Source of the DNA: a virus
IMG/VR virus record: IMGVR_UViG_3300036851_000114
Location: 1 to 39,690 of that record
Length of the DNA stretch: 39,690 nt
Reading direction: 5' to 3' (one strand)
The notes beneath the pieces were generated by a model. That model was not told the DNA's origin. It did not search any database and saw only the letters and a list, made by a program, of their open reading frames with translations. Shown here piece by piece: positions 9,475-17,806 of the stretch. The position numbers and the translations under genes are program-made. How positions within the stretch are numbered: the first letter of the stretch is position 1; each line of letters begins with the position of its first letter.

Positions 9475-10692
9475 TCATGTCTCCATAATAAACTCTTCTG
9501 GATCTAACCCTCCATTGATTGCGGTAATTGCCTCCCGAGCAAACATCACATCCGGTGGTACTCGAAGAATGTAAGGTCGGTCAGTAGAGGGGCATTGCAT
9601 CTTAAGAAGCCGTATTGGTTCAACGTCAGCGCCTTCGGCAATGTTGTAAAGCTCGTATTCTCGCCACGAATCAATCTTCTTAGCGTTTAGCTCATGAAAA
9701 ATCTTCTCGTAGCCAAGCTCTTGAATAAGAATTCGCTTAATCTCTACATTCTGTTCCTCTAAGAGCCATTTCGATTGCCAATCTTTGTTTTTTACTGCTC
9801 CGTATTTCGAGGAAAGCCTAACGCCGTGAAAAGCGTACACTCCAAAACCATCGGGATATTCAATTGCCATTCGTCCATCAGAATTATGCAATCGATTGTT
9901 TGCGTCTCTAGATAGAAAAATAGGCTTCTCTGTTAAAATCACAGCACCCTGAAACGGCCACCACCAACCGCAACATTCCGCAAGCTCCATAAGGGGCTTA
10001 AGCGTCGAACAATAAGACAGTTCGCAAATTTCAAGAAAATAATTATAGAACCCGAGCCAATTAGAATCATGTAGGCCATATCCACATTTATAAACTTGAT
10101 CCCCTATTTGATCCCTGACTTGATCCCTGACTTGATCCCTGACTTGAGCCTTGACTTGATCCTTGACTTGATCCCAGACTTGAACCCCTATTTGATCCCA
10201 GACTTGATCCCTGACTTGATCCTTGACTTGATCCCAGACTTGAACCCCGACTTGATCCCAGACTTGATCCCTGACTTGATCCTTGACTTGATCCCAGACT
10301 TGAACCCCGACTTGAACCCCGACTTGATCCCTGACTTGAACCCTGACTTGAGCCTTGACTTGAACCCTGACTTGAGCCTTGACTTGAACCCCGACTTGAT
10401 CCCAGACTTGATCCCTGACTTGAACCCTGACTTGAGCCTTGACTTGAACCCCGACTTGATCCCAGACTTGATCCCAATTACAAAGCATACTGGACCCGAT
10501 CGCTCCTGCGAACGGGGACTCAAGCCATATAAAAATTTGTGGCTCTTTTTGATCTGCAGCTTTGTATACTGCCTTCATAGCCTCCACCGCTCGCGGCCTA
10601 TCCGCTCGCCCCGTAGAAAGCCCGACACCAAGCCATTTGTCTCGGTAAAAAACCAACTTTTCAATTTGTTCTTTCGTAAGCTCGGTAATCAT
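9475..10692 (-). CDS. DUF6745-type protein with 32 xxQV tetrapeptide repeats
   Basis: 405 residues from ATG 10692, behind AAGGTGG and just after the upstream stop; a longer frame to 10758 would overlap that gene. Residues 1-72 match the family N-terminus (YRDKWLGVGLSTGRADRPRA, WLESPFAGAI). Residues 73-200 are 32 tandem tetrapeptides of form [W/R/K/G][D/A/V]QV. Residues 201-405 are the conserved C domain (DGRMAIEYPDGFGVYAFHGVR; a CPSTDRPYILRVPPDV segment near the end). DUF6745 proteins occur in bacteria and phages with no known function. The upstream gene is its usual partner. The repeat number is probably unstable by slippage. Confidence 0.85.
   Translation of the reverse strand: MITELTKEQIEKLVFYRDKWLGVGLSTGRADRPRAVEAMKAVYKAADQKEPQIFIWLESPFAGAIGSSMLCNWDQVWDQVGVQVKAQVRVQVRDQVWDQVGVQVKAQVRVQVKAQVRVQVRDQVGVQVGVQVWDQVKDQVRDQVWDQVGVQVWDQVKDQVRDQVWDQIGVQVWDQVKDQVKAQVRDQVRDQVRDQIGDQVYKCGYGLHDSNWLGFYNYFLEICELSYCSTLKPLMELAECCGWWWPFQGAVILTEKPIFLSRDANNRLHNSDGRMAIEYPDGFGVYAFHGVRLSSKYGAVKNKDWQSKWLLEEQNVEIKRILIQELGYEKIFHELNAKKIDSWREYELYNIAEGADVEPIRLLKMQCPSTDRPYILRVPPDVMFAREAITAINGGLDPEEFIMET
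10093..10476 (-). repeat. 12-bp coding tandem repeat, 32 units
   Basis: Every unit ends in an invariant CAA GTC (twice GTC becomes ATC), with a first codon TGG, AGG, AAG or GGG and a second GAT, GCT or GTT. Because the period is a multiple of three, all six frames stay open across it, which creates false ORFs on both strands. A higher-order repeat of five units (60 bp: WDQV KDQV RDQV WDQV GVQV) occurs twice in a row plus two units, showing recent unequal exchange or slippage. Confidence 0.95.
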
Positions 10693-10693
10693 A

Positions 10694-11011
10694 TCAGTCC
10701 ACCACCTTTTTCCATCCGGAAGGTTCGTAGTTTTTCTGGATAACAACCTCGTAATCACCCTCGGGTAATTGAATCTCTCGATGCTCTTCGTGTTTTAACG
10801 CAGCATATGGAGACGTTACGCTCAGATAAGTTTTCTCATCATACTTAAATAGCCTTGCCTTTCCTTCTGCTATTTGATGGGAGTGTCCCGTAACTTCGCC
10901 ATAGGCCAAGACAATCTTCTTGACTTTCTCTTCTTTTGCCTCTTCAGGAACTGACTTGATTCGCTTTAGAATGACATCTCCCTGCCTTCGGTGATTTTTA
11001 TTAATTTGCAT
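10694..11011 (-). CDS. Conserved small partner of the DUF6745 protein
   Basis: 105 residues, AAGGAG ribosome site. It has a compact beta pattern: RRQGDVILKRIKSVP, AYGEVTGHSHQIAEG, YLSVTSPYAALKHEEHREIQLPEGDYEVVIQKNYEP. I recognise the GEVTGHxHxI / LxHEEHxxIxxPxGxYxVxxQxEY pattern as a protein commonly encoded beside DUF6745 genes. Conserved His residues (GHSH, KHEEH) could bind metal, giving a cupin-like look. One base separates it from the DUF6745 start, so the two are co-translated. Function unknown. Confidence 0.75.
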   Translation of the reverse strand: MQINKNHRRQGDVILKRIKSVPEEAKEEKVKKIVLAYGEVTGHSHQIAEGKARLFKYDEKTYLSVTSPYAALKHEEHREIQLPEGDYEVVIQKNYEPSGWKKVVD

Positions 11012-17748: not shown

Positions 17749-17806
17749 AATGACCGGTCGAAGCCTTAAATATGACCGCTCGACACCCCCTAAAAATGAC
17801 CGGTCT
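17749..17806. repeat. Three iteron-like ATGACCGGTC direct repeats
   Basis: AATGACCGGTCG (17749), TATGACCGCTCG (17771) and AATGACCGGTCT (17795) occur at 22- and 24-base steps, about two DNA turns, so all three face the same side. The core GACCGGTC is itself a palindrome. They start 18 bases after the stop of the winged-helix-like gene. They are likely binding sites for that protein (iterons or operator). Confidence 0.65.

Follow-up and report, generated by a model that had tools for sequence, protein, structure and literature searches.

A phage two-gene cassette joining a DUF6745 protein with a variable tetrapeptide array to a small conserved partner

Introduction

The repeats of TAL effectors are 33-35 residues long and each contains two specifying residues, the order of the repeats specifying the target. 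Pentapeptide-repeat proteins have a five-residue period, diversity-generating retroelements introduce adenine-directed changes to any base of their targets, and in VNTR, or coding-minisatellite, proteins the number of units differs between close relatives. The closest named relatives of the protein considered here are two DUF6745 proteins, gp174 of Ma-LMM01 and gp38 of prophiGD102-1, which share its tail domain and whose small-gene neighbours are gp175 and gp37, respectively. Unlike that protein, gp174 has no array, and the array of gp38 is of the type QL[W/R/G][G/D]. A literature search found no paper naming DUF6745 or DUF7666.

We analyzed a 39,690-bp virus record, hereafter the window, which carries terminase, portal, major head protein, and amidase genes. 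An earlier note on this DNA had proposed a phage-borne DUF6745 two-gene cassette with a programmable-looking repeat and a His-rich conserved neighbor.

Results

Gene layout

Both genes of the cassette lie on the minus strand. The small gene (10694-11011) encodes a protein of 105 residues, predicted to be all-beta, which is the partner of the 405-residue product of the DUF6745 gene (9475-10692). The latter gene starts with an ATG at 10692, one base past the stop codon of the small gene (10694-10696); this is a better start than the listed GTG of the open reading frame 9475-10758, and the conserved N-domain begins there. The N-domain (10477-10692, residues 1-72) has the consensus 'LT.EQ...DR..AE....Y..AG...P..IxW..SP', and an HMM built here from this domain matches 53 of the fetched DUF6745 proteins. 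It is followed by the tetrapeptide array (10093-10476, residues 73-200), made of 32 units of 12 bp encoding [W/R/K/G][D/V/A]Q[V/I], and by the DUF6745 tail (PF20530, 9475-10092, Pfam E-value 5.7e-30), whose match spans residues 228-423 of the 427-residue open reading frame with 104.6 bits, against a gathering cut-off of 27. Elsewhere in the window, a short 24-bp tandem repeat of 2.5 copies occurs at 17749-17805.

The two genes are linked

When viral loci were fetched with the small gene as the only query, DUF6745 was present in 77 of the 80 obtained, and the small gene was the upstream member in 72; for loci with full flanks, DUF6745 lies beside the small gene in 44 of 44. Of 297 Actinomycetota genomes, 9 have DUF6745 and 9 the small gene; 8 carry the pair (Fisher p = 6e-14), and each gene occurs alone in one genome. 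The proposed linkage is thus confirmed, even when starting from the small gene alone, and the cassette itself is the firmest of our findings. The two genes are side by side in Ma-LMM01 and prophiGD102-1; in MW202476, the small gene comes directly downstream. In Mycobacterium abscessus prophages, the cassette is present in prophiGD102-1 and absent from prophiGD57-2, homology between the two restarting two bases past the DUF6745 stop codon; as these prophages differ more widely upstream, the junction corresponds to a mosaic boundary and not to a clean empty site. Phages do carry the cassette, as proposed, but so do chromosomes and plasmids.

The small protein matches phrog_27831, a family of unknown function (E-value 1.6e-16), and no Pfam family above cut-off. 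Its conserved residues follow the pattern G-E-x-T-G-H-x-H ... H-E-E-H ... D (C-terminal), with E39, H45, and H77 invariant and H43 and H74 conserved at 90% or more, so that the GHSH and HEEH histidines noticed earlier are indeed kept across the family. The protein is modelled as all-beta by AF2 (mean pLDDT 88.8), and probably binds a metal through this conserved His/Glu/Asp set. Its one confident match in a viral fold library is an uncharacterised phage protein, and a PDB fold search with the models of both proteins gave nothing at an E-value of 0.001 or better. The PADLOC models match neither the small protein nor the bacterial proteins; their sole match is a weak one in the repeat region of the window (E-value 1.7e-4).

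The array of the window

Tandem Repeats Finder reports 31.8 copies of 12 bp (score 498). Gln is present in 32 of the 32 units and Val in 30, the other two having Ile, and the variable pairs are exactly seven: WD, RD, GV, KA, RV, KD, and GD. The units also form a five-unit, 60-bp higher-order repeat, with a unit identity of 0.44 at lag 5 against at most 0.25 elsewhere (shuffle p = 0.003). The description of the array given in the earlier note is accurate on all of these counts. Nevertheless, other arrays peak at other lags, and a fixed structural period of 60 bp was rejected on this ground; lag 5, being peculiar to the window array, looks like the product of a recent segmental duplication rather than of structure.

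AF2 predicts long helices for the array, but with low confidence (pLDDT about 42-65, the repeat alignment being unreliable), compared to about 90 for the N-domain and mostly 86-97 for the DUF6745 tail. Ala-rich arrays are expected to be helical, in agreement with this low-confidence helix. The only PDB sequence profiles matched, Plasmodium P230 (E-value 5e-6) and weaker ones over the repeat region, were set aside as compositional.

Unit grammar across arrays

The fixed frame with two variable positions seen in the window extends to the whole family. Of 56 DUF6745-type arrays, all 56 show variation at unit base 7 and 50 at base 11; in the median array, 9 of the 12 bases are invariant (10 in AA-type arrays, described below). 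Base 7 specifies Trp, Arg, or Gly, and base 11 Asp or Ala (sometimes D/G, A/E, or D/V), while the fixed pair is lineage-specific (QV, SV, SL, QL, or AV). Counting changes as distinct alleles per array, synonymous alleles are depleted in DUF6745-type arrays (48/297, i.e. 48:249, P = 7e-5) and more strongly in 87 AA-type arrays (28/318, i.e. 28:290, P = 2e-17). The window array is a looser example, having five variable bases and one synonymous allele, and shows no depletion alone (P = 0.58).

The Arg codon is AGG or CGG, never both, in 107 of 108 arrays, and Trp, Arg, and Gly occur together in 44 of 47. We read the frozen bases, the depletion of synonymous alleles, and the single Arg codon as signs that arrays grow by recombination out of a small number of founder words while the residues are under selection. 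Because AGG and CGG are not mixed, we rejected the idea that Trp, Arg, and Gly arise directly by random point mutation. The number of units ranges from a few to 94, part of these lengths deriving from short-read assemblies. Some lineages use divergent alphabets, such as AV[D/N/Y/H/R/G][G/D] in two loci (L294 and L296) and L/S/R/G in another (L027).

Unit order and turnover

In 47 DUF6745-type and 61 AA-type arrays, Trp, Arg, and Gly show no significant autocorrelation at lags 1-12. A helix code with identical residues on the same face was rejected, since neither W-W, R-R, nor G-G pairs give a signal at lag 9. In DUF6745-type arrays, an alternation of acidic residues is seen over short lags, Arg is paired with an acidic residue within its own unit (z = 6.5), and some internal order is detected in 14 of 47 arrays, including that of the window.

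Unit order also differs between DUF6745 homologs. One comparison is that of two prophages (L014 and L065) whose flanks are 99.6% identical over 4.6 and 3.6 kb, and whose arrays have 46 and 19 full units, edge units excluded, with a longest shared run of 5 units (p = 0.24). According to the paper describing these prophages, sequencing used paired Illumina reads of 300 bases, supplemented by Nanopore for some of them (PMC8092301); since L065 and L066 come from other assemblies, assembly error may underlie this difference. With the pooled order of 47 arrays statistically random and the arrays of these prophages unrelated, the suggestion of a programmable positional code finds no support.

Arrays beyond DUF6745

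A DNA-only scan for the QV word returned at least 120 loci, and in 98 of those listed the stretch fetched includes the N- or C-domain of DUF6745 or else the small gene. A similar scan for the Ala-Ala word revealed the same grammar in Imm5_like (PF21805), DUF7666 (PF24703), and unnamed phage families. Both scans are biased towards this grammar, because their patterns required the word to be intact in three or four units in a row. The window protein has no Pfam listing for Imm5_like or DUF7666 at E-values up to 1. A second host family, with the motif 'MCDG.IF..N' and putatively separate from DUF6745, bears a QV array in one member (L196) and an AA array in another (L401), their N-parts being 47% identical.

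Members of this MCDG family, with either QV or AA arrays, were seen at L196:5350-6141, L192:3206-4012, L147:4623-5363, and L401:6168-7175, the N-part of the L192 protein differing from those of the other members. A second repeat protein ('AWGNSTVVAWENSTV') is encoded at L147:1355-2287, on a contig with a QV array, and one viral contig (L385:3641-10854) contains several paralogous genes, each with its own AA[W/R/G][A/D] array.

Scaffold exchange and bacterial relatives

Six loci of the Chloroflexota set (L303-L308) and one, L299, of the Acidobacteriota set encode the C-half of DUF6745 alone and retain the small gene directly upstream of it. The N-part is a leucine-rich repeat (LRR) in the four of these that were inspected, by Pfam in L299, L303, and L304 and from its sequence in L305. 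The same layout is found in Deinococcus sp. QL22 and Methylobacterium currus, with an N-part that is LRR-like by eye, adjoining or part of the STM4011-4015 cluster. Loci L434 and L435 combine an LRR or LRR-like N-part on the DUF6745 C-half with the small gene upstream, beside STM4011-4015 genes.

Other relatives depart from the window layout in other ways. One (L017) is a fusion to TPR, some have no array (LMM01, L069), and in others free-standing arrays occur as one to about seven short open reading frames beside an array-less DUF6745 gene and the small gene. Overlapping short open reading frames that are each nearly all array were noted in L004, L006, L136, and L131, with a stop/start overlap ATGGTGA in L006. 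At L036:4305-5603, the N-domain, array, and DUF6745 tail are in three overlapping frames, as would result from a broken gene, a frameshift, or a sequencing error.

Discussion

We tentatively favor, as the best of several readings, that the cassette is an accessory pair whose binding scaffold is probably helical, shuffles rapidly, and is under selection for its composition and its heterogeneity. The two genes would form one accessory module, present in phages as a moron-like gene pair. The small gene would encode a compact, probably metal-binding beta-protein with conserved His, Glu, and Asp residues, and the second gene a constant N-domain and a DUF6745 tail with an exchangeable repeat scaffold, usually the tetrapeptide array in phages and an LRR solenoid in several bacterial relatives with the same partner. 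The array would be an interaction surface, whose composition (W/R/G by D/A, all within one array) appears to be under amino acid-level selection, whereas recombination within a small set of unit types appears to keep renewing the number and order of the units. The array would most likely bind a partner that is polymorphic or changes fast, and the tail, together with the small protein, would act on that binding. The presence of an LRR in the same place beside the same partner, together with the maintained heterogeneity, favors such a fast-changing surface. Against this reading, neither protein has a PDB fold match, a random unit order is odd for a specific binder, the LRR and the array may occupy one position yet differ in function, and the array is missing from relatives such as LMM01 and L069.

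A serious rival, possible if rather unlikely, is that the array is a composition-driven polymer, with Trp and Arg as multivalent stickers, Gly, Ser, Gln, and Ala as spacers, and R-D charge pairs. Length and composition would then matter and order would not, the array concentrating or tethering the tail and the small protein. The lack of an order signal for Trp, Arg, and Gly at any lag in the 47 and 61 arrays, the pairing of Arg with an acid in its own unit, the wide range of unit numbers, and the free-standing arrays are all consistent with such a polymer. Nevertheless, the lineage-specific alphabets (L294/L296, L027) suggest that Trp and Arg stickers are not essential, the AV-type arrays weakening sticker chemistry as a universal need, and the LRR found in this position is more suggestive of a binding scaffold.

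It is less probable still that the array is a selfish or neutral coding minisatellite, a 12-bp repeat expanding in tolerant loops of phage genes and functionless itself. Such an element could well appear in unrelated protein families and as separate open reading frames, be missing from many homologs, and lie often at contig ends, as these arrays do. It would not be expected to vary at the same two residue positions, with the same residues recurring from different founder codons, to be depleted in synonymous alleles, to keep Trp, Arg, and Gly together, or to stay nearly always in one reading frame. Finally, a TAL-like positional code, in which the variable pair of each unit reads one target element and is re-programmed by shuffling, would suit a six-letter alphabet near maximal entropy and an order that is different in every relative, as expected from an arms race, but order is not conserved, nothing correlates beyond the unit except the short-range acidic alternation, length is highly variable, and alphabets differ between lineages. 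Nothing favors such a rapidly diversifying recognition code, which we regard as very improbable.

A broader proposal, which we consider doubtful, is that phages share a general device to produce variable protein surfaces: a 12-bp coding word with two free bases (three by two residues), amplified and shuffled by recombination from a few founder words, inserted into several unrelated accessory proteins and equivalent to the LRR scaffolds of bacterial orthologs, that is, a retroelement-free diversity generator.

Should the favored reading hold, a hypervariable repeat domain, renewed much more rapidly than the surrounding genome, would be present in many phages; it would come with an obligate partner and have a bacterial counterpart that bears an LRR. 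This would provide a tractable case of rapid protein diversification without reverse transcriptase, and a shared, testable frame for DUF6745, its partner, and STM4011-4015.

Comparison with known systems

The STM4011-STM4015 cluster comprises two radical SAM proteins, the STM4013 hydrolase, STM4014, and STM4015. It adjoins DUF6745 and the small gene in L016, L018, L020, L022, Deinococcus sp. QL22, and Methylobacterium currus, and the several pairs adjacent to it are chromosomal or plasmid-borne, actinobacterial ones among them; none of its genes was noticed beside the phage copies examined. The LRR proteins of Chloroflexota, Deinococcus, and Methylobacterium share the DUF6745 C-half tail and the small partner with the window, but carry an LRR-like solenoid where the window protein has its N-domain and tetrapeptide array. 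The AA[W/R/G][A/D] arrays of Imm5_like and DUF7666 share the 12-bp unit, the variable bases 7 and 11, the one Arg codon per array, and the otherwise frozen bases, and differ in their Ala-Ala frame and host proteins.

Compared to TAL effectors, the window unit has only 4 residues and no Pfam match. Unit order, random when pooled and unrelated in near-identical relatives, might still specify a target. The period of 4 and the absence of a corresponding Pfam match also separate the array from pentapeptide-repeat proteins. Diversity-generating retroelements would not leave Arg as AGG only or CGG only within an array, and no RVT_1 was found in the window or in the records, some of them fragments, of 8 relatives. 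The likeness to VNTR proteins lies in the unit number varying between close relatives; unlike them, the arrays described here shuffle a tiny set of words, keep their synonymous sites mostly frozen, and recur in unrelated phage families.
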